DNA of 64,000 nt, taken from the NCBI GenBank assembly GCA_947479755.1, contig CANKAM010000017.1, forward strand, positions 1 to 64,000. The letters are read 5' to 3'. The DNA comes from Bacteroidota bacterium. GTDB lineage: Bacteria; Bacteroidota; Bacteroidia; SXHM01. A program made the translations under genes and the position numbers. How positions within the stretch are numbered: the stretch's first letter is position 1; the number at the start of each line of letters is the position of its first letter. Positions 2,510-36,841 of this stretch are shown piece after piece. The notes below the pieces were generated by a model. It did no database searches. It had not been told where the DNA came from and saw only the letters and a program-made list of their open reading frames with translations.

Positions 2510-4768
2510 ATGGCTTTCGACATTGAAATGATCCGCAAAACCTACGCGGAATTACCCGGTAAAGTAGAGGCAGCCCGCAAACTGGTTGGCCGTCCGCTTA
2601 CCCTCACCGAAAAAATATTGTATGCCCACTTACACAGTGAGCAGAAACCCGATAATTTTCAGCGCGGAAACTCCTACGTTGATTTTTCTCCCGACCGTGT
2701 AGCCATGCAGGATGCAACAGCGCAGATGGCACTATTGCAGTTTATGCAGGCAGGCAGACCAAAAGTAGCTGTGCCTTCAACCGTTCATTGCGACCACCTG
2801 ATTACCGCAAAAAACGGAGCAGAAGAAGACTTGGCGTTTGCAACCAAGGAAAGCAAAGAAGTGTTTGATTTCCTTGGCTCAGTATCTAATAAATACGGAT
2901 TAGGTTTCTGGAAACCGGGTGCAGGTATTATCCACCAGGTTGTTCTTGAAAATTATGCTTTCCCGGGAGGAATGATGATAGGAACCGATTCACACACCGT
3001 GAATGCAGGCGGATTGGGAATGATAGCCATCGGTGTTGGTGGTGCAGATGCCTGCGATGTGATGGCAGGTTTAGCATGGGAATTGAAAATGCCTAAGTTG
3101 ATTGGTGTTAAACTTACCGGCAAACTAAGCGGTTGGACAGCACCTAAAGATGTTATTCTGAAAGTAGCAGGTATCCTTACTGTTAAAGGCGGAACCGATG
3201 CAGTGGTTGAATATTTTGGTGAAGGCGCAACCTCCATGAGCTGCACCGGAAAAGGAACCATCTGCAACATGGGTGCTGAGATAGGAGCAACCACTTCTAC
3301 GTTTGGGTATGATGATTCAATGGCAAGATATTTAAAAGCAACCGGCCGTGCCGATGTTGCCGAACTTGCTGATAAAATAAGAGAACACCTGACTGCCGAT
3401 GCTGATGTCTATGCAAACCCTGAGCAATATTTTGATCAGTTAATTGAGATTAACCTGTCGGAACTGGAGCCACATGTAAATGGTCCCTTTACACCTGATT
3501 TAGCTACACCTATTTCTAAACTAAAAGAAGAAGCTCTTAAAAACGGCTGGCCTTTAAAAATATCAGTTGGCTTGCTGGGCTCCTGCACCAACTCATCGTA
3601 TGAGGATATTTCACGTGCGGTTAGTCTTGCCAAACAGGTATCAGCTAAAAACCTGAAAGCAAAAGCAGAATACTTAATCAACCCGGGTTCTGAACAAATC
3701 CGCTACACCATTAAACGTGATGGTTTCTTAGATGTGTTCGACCAGATAGGCGCTAAAGTATTTACCAATGCCTGCGGTCCTTGCATCGGTATGTGGGACA
3801 GAATGGGAGCAGAGAAGAAAGAGAAAAATACCATCATCCACTCCTTCAACCGCAACTTTGCAAAACGTGCAGACGGAAATCCGAATACCTACGCCTTTGT
3901 TGCTTCTCCTGAGATTGTAACGGCAATGGCTATTGCTGGTGATTTAACATTCAATCCTTTGACAGATTACCTGACCAACGAAAAAGGGGAACAGGTAAAA
4001 TTAGATCCGCCTTCAGGTGATGAATTACCTACAAAAGGTTTTGCAGTAGAAGATGCCGGATATCAGGCTCCTGCTGCTGACGGCAGTAAAGTGAGTGTTC
4101 TGGTTGCTGCAACATCAGACCGTTTGCAGATACTTTCTCCTTTCTCAGCATGGGAAGGTGTTGACCTGAAAGGGTTGAAACTCCTCATCAAAGCAAAAGG
4201 TAAATGCACTACCGACCATATTTCAATGGCAGGTCCTTGGCTCAAGTTCCGCGGACACCTTGATAACATCAGCAACAACATGTTGATTGGAGCAGTAAAT
4301 GCATTCACAGAGAAAACAGATAGCGTTAAAAACCAGATCAGTGGGGCTTACGATTCAGTACCTAAAGTGCAACGTGCTTACAAAGCCGCTAATATTGGTT
4401 CTATAGTAGTAGGTGACGAAAACTACGGTGAAGGTTCATCACGCGAACACGCAGCGATGGAGCCGCGCCACTTAGGTGTACGTGCAGTATTGGTAAAATC
4501 ATTTGCCCGTATCCACGAAACCAATTTGAAAAAACAAGGAATGCTTGGATTAACTTTTGCCGACAAAGCAGACTACGATAAAATAAAAGAAGACGACAGC
4601 ATTGATATTCTTGGTTTAACCGAGTTTGCGCCCGGAAAACAATTGCAATTAGTATTGCACCACAATGATGGTAATCATGATATCATTAAAGTAAACCACA
4701 GCTACAATGAACAACAGATTGAGTGGTTTAAAGCCGGTGGAGCGCTGAATATTATCAGGGCGCATTAG
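2510..4768 (+). CDS. acn: aconitate hydratase
   Basis: Aconitase interconverts citrate and isocitrate in the TCA cycle, in the cytoplasm. The 752-residue length and layout match the mitochondrial-type family. The three cysteine ligands of the 4Fe-4S cluster are visible: C359 in GSCTNSS, and C422 and C425 in ACGPCIG, almost the same numbering as mitochondrial aconitase. The DSHT motif occurs near residue 165, and the C-terminal swivel domain carries [14 protein letters not shown]. The ATG is preceded by a heptamer-repeat leader. It is monocistronic: a strong terminator follows 30 bases after the stop. Nothing in the sequence suggests loss of function. Confidence 0.98.
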
Positions 4769-4795
4769 GAGCATAAGTCGATTAATAGGTGTTAT

Positions 4796-4836
4796 AAAAA
4801 GAGAAGTCCCGCTTTTGGCGGGACTTCTCTTTTTAT
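4796..4836 (+). terminator. rho-independent terminator of aconitase
   Basis: A perfect 12-bp stem, GAGAAGTCCCGC at 4801-4812 with GCGGGACTTCTC at 4818-4829, has a 5-base loop and is followed by a T-run. The A-run before the stem makes it usable on the opposite strand too, for the lipoprotein gene at 4883. Confidence 0.9.
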
Positions 4837-4882
4837 GTGATAATCCCTGCCGGTAGGCAAGGTGCGTTATCTGTGGTGAAGT

Positions 4883-5071
4883 TTACTTACAATCGCAGCC
4901 GCTCAATGCTTCTGCCGAAGCAATAAAAGCATCGTAATCATCTTTGTTGTTAAAATCATCCTGACAGACTTCTCCGTCAGCTCCAAAACATCCGGTGCAG
5001 TCAACACATTTGTCGCATGAGGTAAGCCCAAATGCTAATACAGCGATAAAAAGGTAAAGTAGTTTTTTCAT
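4883..5071 (-). CDS. small Cys-rich lipoprotein
   Basis: A 62-residue protein beginning MKKLLYLF with a lipobox LTSC, so it is a predicted lipoprotein. I chose the ATG at 5071, because the upstream extension to 5158 has no signal-like character and runs into the neighbouring gene. The mature part contains an unusually dense set of cysteines (CDKCVDCTGC, then C, then GCDCK at the end). The CxxCxxC start resembles that of the lipoprotein encoded immediately upstream (5133-5537, CNTCQTC), which suggests a related pair. The cysteines could form disulfides or bind metal; neither is shown. Confidence 0.75.
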   Translation of the reverse strand: MKKLLYLFIAVLAFGLTSCDKCVDCTGCFGADGEVCQDDFNNKDDYDAFIASAEALSGCDCK

Positions 5072-5132
5072 GTTGTTTTGGTTTTTGTTAGTTAGTATTG
5101 ATTTAATTGTTTCTGATGCAAAAGTAAAAAAA

Positions 5133-5537
5133 TTATTCTCCGTTATTTGCACATTCAACTCTTGTAAATAATGGCGTAACCACTACCGAAGGGCTGTCGG
5201 CAATAAACACATTGTAAAGTGAATCTTTGAGGTGGGCAAGGCTGTCAATATTTCCGCAAACCTGTGGTGAAATATAAACGGTAACACCATCGCTGTCGTT
5301 TACGGTGTAGTTGTAACACACCCATTGTGCTTTTAAATCCTTTTTGTAGCTTTCAATGCCTCCGCATTTTTCGTCTGAAAAATAAACAGTATTGCCAACC
5401 GAGTCTTTTACCTTGCAGGTTTGGCAGGTATTGCAGGATGTGAGAACAACAGTGGATAGCAAATAGCAAATAGCAAATAGTAAATAGTAAATAGTGTTAT
5501 TGCCTTCAATTTTATATTTGCTATTTACTATCATCAA
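5133..5537 (-). CDS. Cys-rich lipoprotein with repeat-derived signal peptide
   Basis: A 134-residue predicted lipoprotein with the lipobox VLTSC near residue 35. The mature protein starts CNTCQTC and has further cysteines spread through two repeated halves (VYFSDEKCGG and VYISPQVCGN). The signal peptide (YYLLFAICYLL) is encoded by tandem heptamers at 5452-5493, on the strand opposite the GCAAATA and GTAAATA units. The upstream part of the same repeat, at about 5512-5532, encodes the first residues, so the start codon itself lies in repeat DNA. It sits between the aminotransferase gene (5549) and a second Cys-rich lipoprotein, in the same orientation. Function unknown. Confidence 0.75.
   Translation of the reverse strand: MMIVNSKYKIEGNNTIYYLLFAICYLLSTVVLTSCNTCQTCKVKDSVGNTVYFSDEKCGGIESYKKDLKAQWVCYNYTVNDSDGVTVYISPQVCGNIDSLAHLKDSLYNVFIADSPSVVVTPLFTRVECANNGE
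5452..5532. repeat. heptamer array and inverted partner encoding a signal peptide
   Basis: Six 7-bp units (GTGGATA, three GCAAATA, two GTAAATA) lie at 5452-5493. They are followed at about 5512-5532 by an inverted copy (TATTTGCTATTTACTATC), so the element can fold into a hairpin. Read on the minus strand the heptamers give the hydrophobic core YLLFAIC of the lipoprotein at 5133-5537. Confidence 0.85.
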
Positions 5538-10384: not shown

Positions 10385-10406
10385 AAAAAGTGTAAGTAAT
10401 AACGCA

Positions 10407-10484
10407 TCATTCCGAGGGAGGAACGATCAAGGCAATCTTAAATTAATTATCAGATTGCTTCGGCTGAAAGAACCTCGCATGACA
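10407..10484. repeat. dispersed palindromic element (TCATTCCGAGG type)
   Basis: The left arm TCATTCCGAGGGAGGAACGA...GGCAATCT pairs imperfectly with the right arm AGATTGCTTCGG...AACCTCGCATGA. From memory, similar palindromes with 'gcaatct...agattgcttcg' arms are scattered in many Bacteroidota genomes. It fills most of the gap between the DUF1275 and thioesterase genes. Confidence 0.7.
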
Positions 10485-10502
10485 ACCTAAACCCTAAGTA
10501 AA

Positions 10503-10910
10503 TTGAGTAACTATAGAGAAAGCCAAATTGAAATAAAAGTGCGTGGCTACCACTTAGATGTTTACCAGCACGTAAACAACGCCCGCTATCTTGAACTGCT
10601 GGAAGAAGGTAGATGGGCGCATTATGAAGGTAGGTTGGAAAGCGATTTCTTTACCCAGAATAAATTAGGAATGGTGGTAGTAAATAACAACATCAATTAC
10701 CATTACCCTGCAACACTGGGCGAGGTGCTGATTGTAAAAACTAAAATTGAACACGTTGGCAATAAAAGTGTGCGTTTTCGCCAGCAACTGTTTTTAAAAG
10801 GCAGTGATAAATTAGTGATTGATGCCAGCGTTACCTTTGTTATTCTGGATATGAAAGCCACCAAATCTGTGCTTATTGAGGGCAAGATATTAGAGATGCT
10901 TGTGAGTTGA
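10503..10910 (+). CDS. acyl-CoA thioesterase, hotdog fold (YbgC/FadM-like)
   Basis: A 135-residue single-domain 4HBT protein, predicted to hydrolyse acyl-CoA thioesters in the cytoplasm. The motif HVNNARYLELLEEGRWAHYE at about residues 22-41 is the substrate and catalytic helix region of the YbgC/FadM group. The only start giving a full domain is the TTG at 10503, so a TTG start is inferred. The stop codon lies three bases before the -33 element of the RNA gene that follows, so the two transcription units abut. Confidence 0.85.
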   Translation: MSNYRESQIEIKVRGYHLDVYQHVNNARYLELLEEGRWAHYEGRLESDFFTQNKLGMVVVNNNINYHYPATLGEVLIVKTKIEHVGNKSVRFRQQLFLKGSDKLVIDASVTFVILDMKATKSVLIEGKILEMLVS

Positions 10911-10912
10911 AA

Positions 10913-10944
10913 TTTGCCTCTTATTTAAAAATGCTTTACTTTTG
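10913..10944 (+). promoter_or_regulatory. consensus Bacteroidota promoter of the RNA gene
   Basis: TTTG at 10913-10916, a 20-base spacer and TACTTTTG at 10937-10944 match TTTG-N(19-21)-TAnnTTTG exactly. Transcription should start about six bases downstream, near 10950. There is no open reading frame of note downstream on this strand before the terminator at 11160. Confidence 0.85.
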
Positions 10945-10949
10945 GGCTA

Positions 10950-11198
10950 TCAGGCTAAAATAAAAAGGCAGTTACGCAGTAATGCGGAACAGGCTAAGGT
11001 AAGTTCCAGCCATGGTACTTTCCGGTGTCAGAGTCATAAATAGGAACACCCACAAGCCAGTCGCAAGACCGGTTTTTCTGCAGCAATGCAGAACTAATGA
11101 TGACGAAGTCGTAATAAATAAAACCTGACTGTTCCGTTACTCTGGTAAAGGAATTTGAAGAAAACGCGATCTTGCGAGGGTCGCGTTTTCTTATTTTA
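10950..11198 (+). ncRNA. structured non-coding RNA, family not identified
   Basis: A roughly 250-nt transcription unit with a consensus promoter just upstream and a rho-independent terminator at its end. A long-range helix joins 10972-10992 to 11129-11148 (CGGAACAG with CTGTTCCG, GTAA with TTAC, TTAC with GTAA, small bulges). Inside it are local hairpins at 10998-11023 (GGTAAGT with ACTTTCC, one mismatch, extended by CCA-GCCA-TGG), 11057-11072 (GTC-GCAA-GAC core) and 11078-11091 (CTGCA-GCAA-TGCAG). Two loops are GCAA tetraloops. This branched fold does not look like 6S RNA (one long rod). I see no tmRNA tag, no SRP core and no RNase P P4 motif. Confidence 0.7.
11160..11198 (+). terminator. 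rho-independent terminator of the RNA gene
   Basis: GAAAACGCGA (11160-11169) pairs perfectly with TCGCGTTTTC (11181-11190) and is followed by TTATTTTATA. The T-rich side points to plus-strand transcription. Confidence 0.85.
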
Positions 11199-11207
11199 TA
11201 TTGGTAT

Positions 11208-11272
11208 GTCACCCTGAATTTATTTCAGGATTTTTCTCAGATGGGAGATGCTGAAACAAGTTCAGCATGACG
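11208..11272. repeat. dispersed palindromic element (CCCTGAAnTTnTTTCAG type)
   Basis: The arms GTCACCCTGAATTTATTTCAG and GCTGAAACAAGTTCAGCATGAC form an imperfect palindrome. Related copies lie at 36781-36841 and 57153-57218, and a related half element at 21985. All are intergenic. Confidence 0.75.
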
Positions 11273-11281
11273 AGGGGAGTT

Positions 11282-35725: not shown

Positions 35726-36790
35726 ATGCCTGAATCGATAAATATTCCCCAACTTCTTGAATTGAGAAAAACACTTCCTCTGCTCGACACACGCAGTGAA
35801 GGTGAGTATACTCATGCCCATATTCCGGGTGCAATTAATCTGCCTTTGCTTAATAATCAGGAGCGCGAAAAAGTTGGAACCTGTTACAAACAGAAGGGCA
35901 GGGAAGAAGCGGTGTTACTGGGTTTTGATCTGGTAGGTGGAAAGTTTGGAGATTATATAAGAAAGGCAAAAGCAATATCGAATATCGAACAAGGAATATC
36001 GAATGTAGAACAATCACAAATTATTATTTATTGCTGGCGGGGTGGTATGCGCAGTAATATCATGGCCTGGCTTTTAGAAAAAGCAGGATTAAAAGTCTAT
36101 CTTTTAGAAGGCGGTTACAAAACCTTTCGTCATTGGGCATTGAATGAATTTGAACAACCATTTCAATTGCTGGTACTGGGCGGAAAAACAGGTTCAGGAA
36201 AAACTGAGGTGTTGCACGAAATGAAAAATTCAGGCGAACAGGTAATAGACCTCGAAGGCTTGGCGCATCACCGCGGTTCTGCGTTTGGTGCACTGGGACA
36301 GCCTGCACAAACCACTTCTGAGCAGTTTGAAAATAATCTTGCTCTGGAGTTATTGCAGATTGACAGAAAGAAAACGCTGTGGCTTGAAAATGAAAGCAGC
36401 AAAATTGGTGGCGTTAAAATTCCGGATGGAATTTATAATCAAATGCGCGCTAACACGGTGGTAGAAATTGAAGTGCCGTTAGATAGAAGAATTGAAAACA
36501 TTGCCCGCGATTACGCCTCGTTTCCTAAGGAGAAACTTGCAGAAGCCACAAAACGAATTGAGAAAAAACTGGGCAATAAAAATATGAATGACGGCCTCAA
36601 TTATCTGCACGAAGATGATTTTTATAACTGGATAAAAATACTGCTCGACTATTATGATAAGGCTTATACCTTCAGCAAATCACAACGTGAACCCGGAACA
36701 ATATTGAACGTGCCAATCACTACTGAAAATCATTCTGAAATAGCTGTTGCTGTTATTAGTTTTGCCAAACAAAAAATAACGTCACACTGA
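35726..36790 (+). CDS. mnmH: tRNA 2-selenouridine synthase MnmH with in-frame heptamer insertion
   Basis: MnmH (SelU) converts 2-thiouridine at the tRNA wobble position to 2-selenouridine using selenophosphate. The N-terminal rhodanese domain carries the catalytic C103 in YCWRGGMRSN; the C-terminal P-loop domain carries GGKTGSGKTE (about 151-160), and LEGLAHHRGSAFG follows. Between the expected helix and the strand leading to C103 lie about 14 extra residues (SNIEQGISNVEQSQ) encoded by six heptamers at 35974-36015. The frame is preserved. selD follows after 73 bp, so the pathway is complete apart from tRNA thiolation genes. No SelA or SelB is seen. Confidence 0.95.
   Translation: MPESINIPQLLELRKTLPLLDTRSEGEYTHAHIPGAINLPLLNNQEREKVGTCYKQKGREEAVLLGFDLVGGKFGDYIRKAKAISNIEQGISNVEQSQIIIYCWRGGMRSNIMAWLLEKAGLKVYLLEGGYKTFRHWALNEFEQPFQLLVLGGKTGSGKTEVLHEMKNSGEQVIDLEGLAHHRGSAFGALGQPAQTTSEQFENNLALELLQIDRKKTLWLENESSKIGGVKIPDGIYNQMRANTVVEIEVPLDRRIENIARDYASFPKEKLAEATKRIEKKLGNKNMNDGLNYLHEDDFYNWIKILLDYYDKAYTFSKSQREPGTILNVPITTENHSEIAVAVISFAKQKITSH
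35974..36015 (+). repeat. six heptamers inserted in frame in mnmH
   Basis: AATATCG, AATATCG, AACAAGG, AATATCG, AATGTAG, AACAATC. The first 24 bases are identical to 50201-50224, which is a non-coding copy next to another gene. The 42-bp length keeps the frame. Confidence 0.9.
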
Positions 36791-36841
36791 ACTTGTTTCA
36801 GGGTCTCTTTATATGATGCTGAAATAAATTCAGCATGATGA
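36781..36841. repeat. dispersed palindromic element between mnmH and selD
   Basis: CTGAACTTGTTTCAG and CTGAAATAAATTCAG are near-complementary arms flanked by GTCACA and CATGATG. It is the same family as 11208-11272 and 57153-57218 and could attenuate read-through into selD. Confidence 0.75.

Follow-up and report, generated by a model that had tools for sequence, protein, structure and literature searches.

What is encoded in the roughly 250 nucleotides behind a thioesterase gene (10503-10910; Pfam 4HBT) in the window, the whole 64,000-nucleotide stretch of Bacteroidota DNA analyzed here? The first-pass annotation had proposed a standalone structured RNA gene, possibly a new one, and conservation, compensatory changes, and the lack of an Rfam match all speak for this proposal. 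Judged from sequence comparison, the region is almost certainly a real conserved structured RNA gene, and the label that fits it best is a new, lineage-restricted family of structured sRNAs. A standalone gene is indicated by the combination of a conserved promoter motif, a compensated multi-hairpin fold, a terminator, a single copy, and a fixed place behind the thioesterase gene. For a Bacteroidota lineage represented here by metagenome assemblies, this defines a structured-RNA family with its coordinates and a fold backed by covariation (Table 1); Bacteroidota sRNAs with known function are few.

Table 1. Predicted features of the RNA gene, in window coordinates
Feature	Position	Strand	Remarks
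Predicted noncoding transcript, ~250 nt	10949-11199	+	conserved in six genomes; alifold z −11.2 against 200 column shuffles
−33 box, TTTG	10913-10916	+	predicted Bacteroidota sigma-A promoter; TTTG in 5 of 6 orthologues; L006 has CTTG
−7 box, TACTTTTG	10937-10944	+	consensus TAnnTTTG; predicted start ~10949; kept in orthologues, TACATTTG in L006
Closing helix P0	10950-10954 with 11124-11128	+	in L006, two pairs with compensatory double changes
Short helix P0b	10967-10969 with 11108-11110	+	100% of cells paired, one G-U variant
Hairpin P1	10971-10990	+	double compensatory changes at four pairs
Hairpin P2, invariant apical UCCAGCCAUGGUA	10992-11029	+	three doubly changed pairs; invariant block
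Helix P3	11033-11037 with 11100-11104; 11041-11043 with 11094-11096	+	encloses P4 and P5
Hairpin P4, GUC-GCAA-GAC tip	11054-11075	+	97.9% of cells paired
Hairpin P5, CUGCA-GCAA-UGCAG	11076-11093	+	one double change; no unpaired cells
Hairpin P6, not enclosed by P0	11130-11155	+	98.3% of cells paired
Intrinsic-terminator hairpin and U-rich tail	11158-11199	+	six pairs with double changes

The promoter arrangement TTTG-N20-TACTTTTG is exact at 10913-10944, and its 20-nucleotide spacing is identical in six of six orthologous loci (the window and L002 to L006), with one base altered in each box of L006. The earlier promoter claim holds insofar as the motif is exact and conserved in the six orthologues; on its own, however, the motif is no more frequent than chance, the pair of boxes matching once per 64 kb compared with 2.9 matches expected. 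It is therefore the conservation that carries weight, and the motif alone proves little. The Bacteroidota −7 box occupies −12 to −5 relative to the start (PMC9723704), which places the predicted start at ~10949. This start fits the closing helix P0, which begins at predicted nucleotide 2 and is compensated in L006, where UCAGG/CCUGA becomes CCAAA/AUUGG with two pairs compensated and one lost. At the other end, a terminator-like hairpin of 16 pairs (11158-11192) does follow the candidate RNA region, as had been claimed. Its 13-nucleotide tip, AUCUUGCGAGGGU (11169-11181), is invariant in all six genomes, the stem below it being replaced by compensated pairs, and the tip occurs exactly once per genome in the three genomes checked. 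The promoter and terminator of its own that characterize a noncoding RNA gene are thus present here, as conserved sequence motifs only.

RNAalifold, run on the six orthologues, returns an identical structure unaided from two alignments (A1 and A4). In the consensus fold, a closing helix at the 5′ end is combined with nested junctions, and the hairpins comprise two capped by GCAA, a conserved one of sequence CCA-GCCA-UGG, and a separate one on the 3′ side, followed by the terminator. The GCAA hairpins noticed in the first-pass annotation are conserved at 11054-11075 and 11076-11093; the latter reads CUGUA-GAAA-UACAG in L006, with the GNRA loop retained. P3 harbors an invariant GUCA/UGAC-type core with one double change, and P6 changes from UUAC/GUAA to UUGC/GCAA in L005. 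Over the 75 consensus pairs, 97.3% of cells pair. Double compensatory changes are found at 18 pairs (12 without the terminator) compared with 7.1 in shuffles, none of 500 reaching 18, and 1-4 in slid controls, in which the tested structure is at an advantage, having been derived from the same six sequences. The covariation check suggested at the outset thus speaks for the fold. The covariation is shallow, as three of the six sequences are nearly identical and about four are independent, all from one genus, and the shuffles ignore relatedness.

The consensus energy is −71.3 compared with −28.4 in column shuffles (z −11.2, 0 of 200 as low); without the terminator, z is −7.1, again with none of 200 column shuffles as low. 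Four non-redundant rows give z −10.2, or −7.1 without the terminator, and the reverse strand yields a weaker alifold result than the plus strand. The single-sequence fold stands at z −5.05 against shuffles with the terminator and at z −3.44 for 10966-11155. The divergent L005 and L006, folded independently, adopt nearly the same architecture. A conserved fold together with compensatory changes, the hallmark of a structured noncoding RNA gene, is thus found at this locus.

The gene is single-copy in its genome and present in six of the seven genomes of the order examined, all six belonging to one genus; the genome without it has a completeness of 68%. The thioesterase gene precedes it in 6 of 6 orthologous loci, and in the window the RNA starts just past the thioesterase stop codon. 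Downstream, yajC lies on the opposite strand in the window and L004, its motif is on the minus strand in L002, L003, and L005, and the L006 contig stops short of the expected yajC position. In L005, a 517-amino acid plus-strand gene (3865-5418), absent from this place in the window and L004, separates the RNA gene from yajC. Identity of the RNA core to the window, paired and unpaired columns together, is 69-92% in L004 to L006, while four-fold codon sites of the neighboring gene reach 50-62% in the same loci; that the RNA core outscores these sites points to selection on the RNA.

Outside the genus, a convincing homologue came neither from a DNA search of 395 class genomes nor from covariance-model searches, which covered 395 genomes of the class, 40 relative genomes, and 396 of the phylum; the larger searches combined a loose first pass with strict filters, such that a very diverged homologue could escape them. 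The weak covariance-model matches outside the genus (L101 and L109 to L116; 16-23 bits) have patchy alignments and were rejected. L111, at the place of an earlier DNA match (L093), lies inside an 807-amino acid coding frame, L116 lies inside a 331-amino acid frame, and L115 overlaps the end of a short gene. L088, a second match in G006, is an unrelated hairpin. Viral contigs searched for the double motif gave no match, their four 17-mer matches being without covariance-model support, and the plasmids searched gave none.

What such an RNA might do is answered more tentatively. Taken whole, the statement that a standalone gene here specifies a noncoding RNA, that this RNA represents a new lineage-restricted family, and that its partner is most likely a protein is plausible but somewhat short of probable. 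The main sigma factor would direct transcription from ~10949, the 5′ end would be clamped into P0, and the compact junction fold would display the invariant UCCAGCCAUGGUA, GUCAGAGUCA, GUCGCAAGAC, and AUCUUGCGAGGGU to a partner. In the weakest step of this scheme, the partner would most likely be a protein, with the RNA serving as an RNA-protein scaffold or decoy. A protein-binding RNA is favored over a base-pairing regulator, as slightly more likely and with modest confidence, because constraint extends across the entire fold and includes its junctions and loops.

The base-pairing alternative, a possible though doubtful one, would make this a trans-acting sRNA similar to GibS, pairing with mRNAs through an invariant exposed sequence (for example, the terminator tip or the UCCAGCCAUGGUA loop). 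An independent intergenic gene with promoter and terminator is the usual form of such sRNAs, and a 13-nucleotide tip that stays invariant while its stem is replaced favors, and keeps open, this reading. However, constraint is not confined to one short seed but covers the entire body of the RNA, and the tip is itself partly paired within the consensus fold. GibS of Bacteroides (PMC7366714) and Rfp18 of Flavobacterium (PMC9723704) are lineage-restricted intergenic sRNAs of Bacteroidota that share with the candidate an independent intergenic gene, the Bacteroidota promoter motif, a terminator, and conservation within the genus or slightly beyond. In contrast to GibS, which has 145 nucleotides, the candidate is larger and has nested junctions, and no Rfam relation to either was found. 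If the RNA were a base-pairing regulator, it would be one more lineage-specific sRNA, whereas binding of a protein or of RNA polymerase would open a new class. A bolder version of the latter, an undescribed class of ornate RNA with a compact tertiary fold that acts in an order-specific RNA-protein machine or as an RNA-polymerase regulator, possibly replacing 6S RNA, is unlikely.

The first-pass annotation closed the RNA with a helix of 10972-10992 and 11129-11148, which has to be given up: it arises when the RNA is cut to 10966-11155, and L005 and L006 both break pairs in its 5′ arm. In the full transcript, 10950-10954 and 11124-11128 close the structure instead, and 10971-10990 and 11130-11155 form separate hairpins. 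That the abandoned helix is a real alternative state, switching with P1 and P6, is quite unlikely. In its favor, 82.2% of its cells are paired, and the GGRRC/GUUCC pairing is possible in most sequences. However, its upper arm is lost in L005 and L006, pair 10991-11130 is broken in five of the six sequences, and P1 and P6, with which it competes, surpass it in compensatory changes and contain fewer broken cells.

A junction fold with a terminator could also belong to a riboswitch or attenuator acting in cis on a neighboring gene, and L005, alone among the loci, has a plus-strand gene downstream. Such an element lies upstream of a co-directional gene that it regulates; in the window and L004, however, the RNA does not, as the next gene, yajC, points the opposite way, and the yajC motif is on the minus strand in L002 and L003 too. 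This downstream layout argues against a cis-regulatory element, as does the start of the RNA just behind a stop codon, making such a role quite improbable.

Comparison with known RNA families bears out the earlier statements that the RNA matches none and is unlike 6S, tmRNA, SRP, and RNase P. With the proposed Rfam check now run, no Rfam 15 family is at or above its gathering cut-off in the window, and the orthologues likewise remain below. A permissive search yielded just weak and scattered sub-threshold names (SQ2397, STnc250, RAGATH-22, and BTnc231), which mostly vary between orthologues or fit mainly the terminator; BTnc231 scores 21.8 bits, compared with a cut-off of 80.4, in one orthologue. 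Bacteroidales-1, Flavo-1, and BTnc231, Rfam Bacteroidota candidates also predicted from comparative sequence or RNA-seq and with mostly unknown functions, do not reach the cut-off for the candidate RNA. The window contains no tRNA or tmRNA on scanning. The small SRP RNA (RF00169), RNase P RNA (RF00010), and tmRNA (RF00023) are likewise structured noncoding RNAs but, unlike the candidate, are encoded by separate genes elsewhere in this genome (RNase P, SRP, and tmRNA at C41, C26, and C104, respectively), and none of these models matches at the RNA locus.

A lineage-specific replacement of 6S RNA, or a highly diverged 6S RNA predicted to bind RNA polymerase, is very unlikely. 6S RNA forms an extended rod interrupted by a single large bubble at its center. 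The candidate shares with 6S and 6S-Flavo a standalone gene with a closing helix; however, it is multi-branched rather than rod-like and matches neither model, and its ~250 nucleotides compare with 108 positions in the 6S-Flavo model. The genome lacks a match to RF00013 (6S) or RF01685 (6S-Flavo), as a replacement would have it, but RF01685 is silent in every control genome and RF00013 in the Bacteroides control, so that 6S RNA may simply be undetected here and the missing match does not establish its absence.

The first-pass annotation also saw no good plus-strand reading frame. A 38-codon frame does exist from AUG 11012, but its length is not conserved in the divergent orthologues (36, 28, and 9 codons in L004, L005, and L006, respectively), and the RNA is apparently not translated. 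That the RNA is a small mRNA for the 38-codon peptide, or has a dual function that includes encoding it, is highly improbable: the AUG and the next codon are invariant and 36-38 codons are open in four of six sequences, but the frame shrinks in L005 and L006, contains insertions and deletions of 1-2 nucleotides, and has its AUG within an invariant hairpin.

Just past the terminator (11205-11275) lies a palindromic dispersed repeat, GCTGAAACAAGTTCAGCATGACG with its partner arm, related copies of which occur at 36780-36840, with none expected by chance. The gap upstream of the thioesterase gene (10400-10485) holds a repeat-like GAGGAACGATC...AGATTGCTTCG, and in L002, L003, and L004 a similar sequence lies behind the RNA terminator, where the window has the palindromic repeat.
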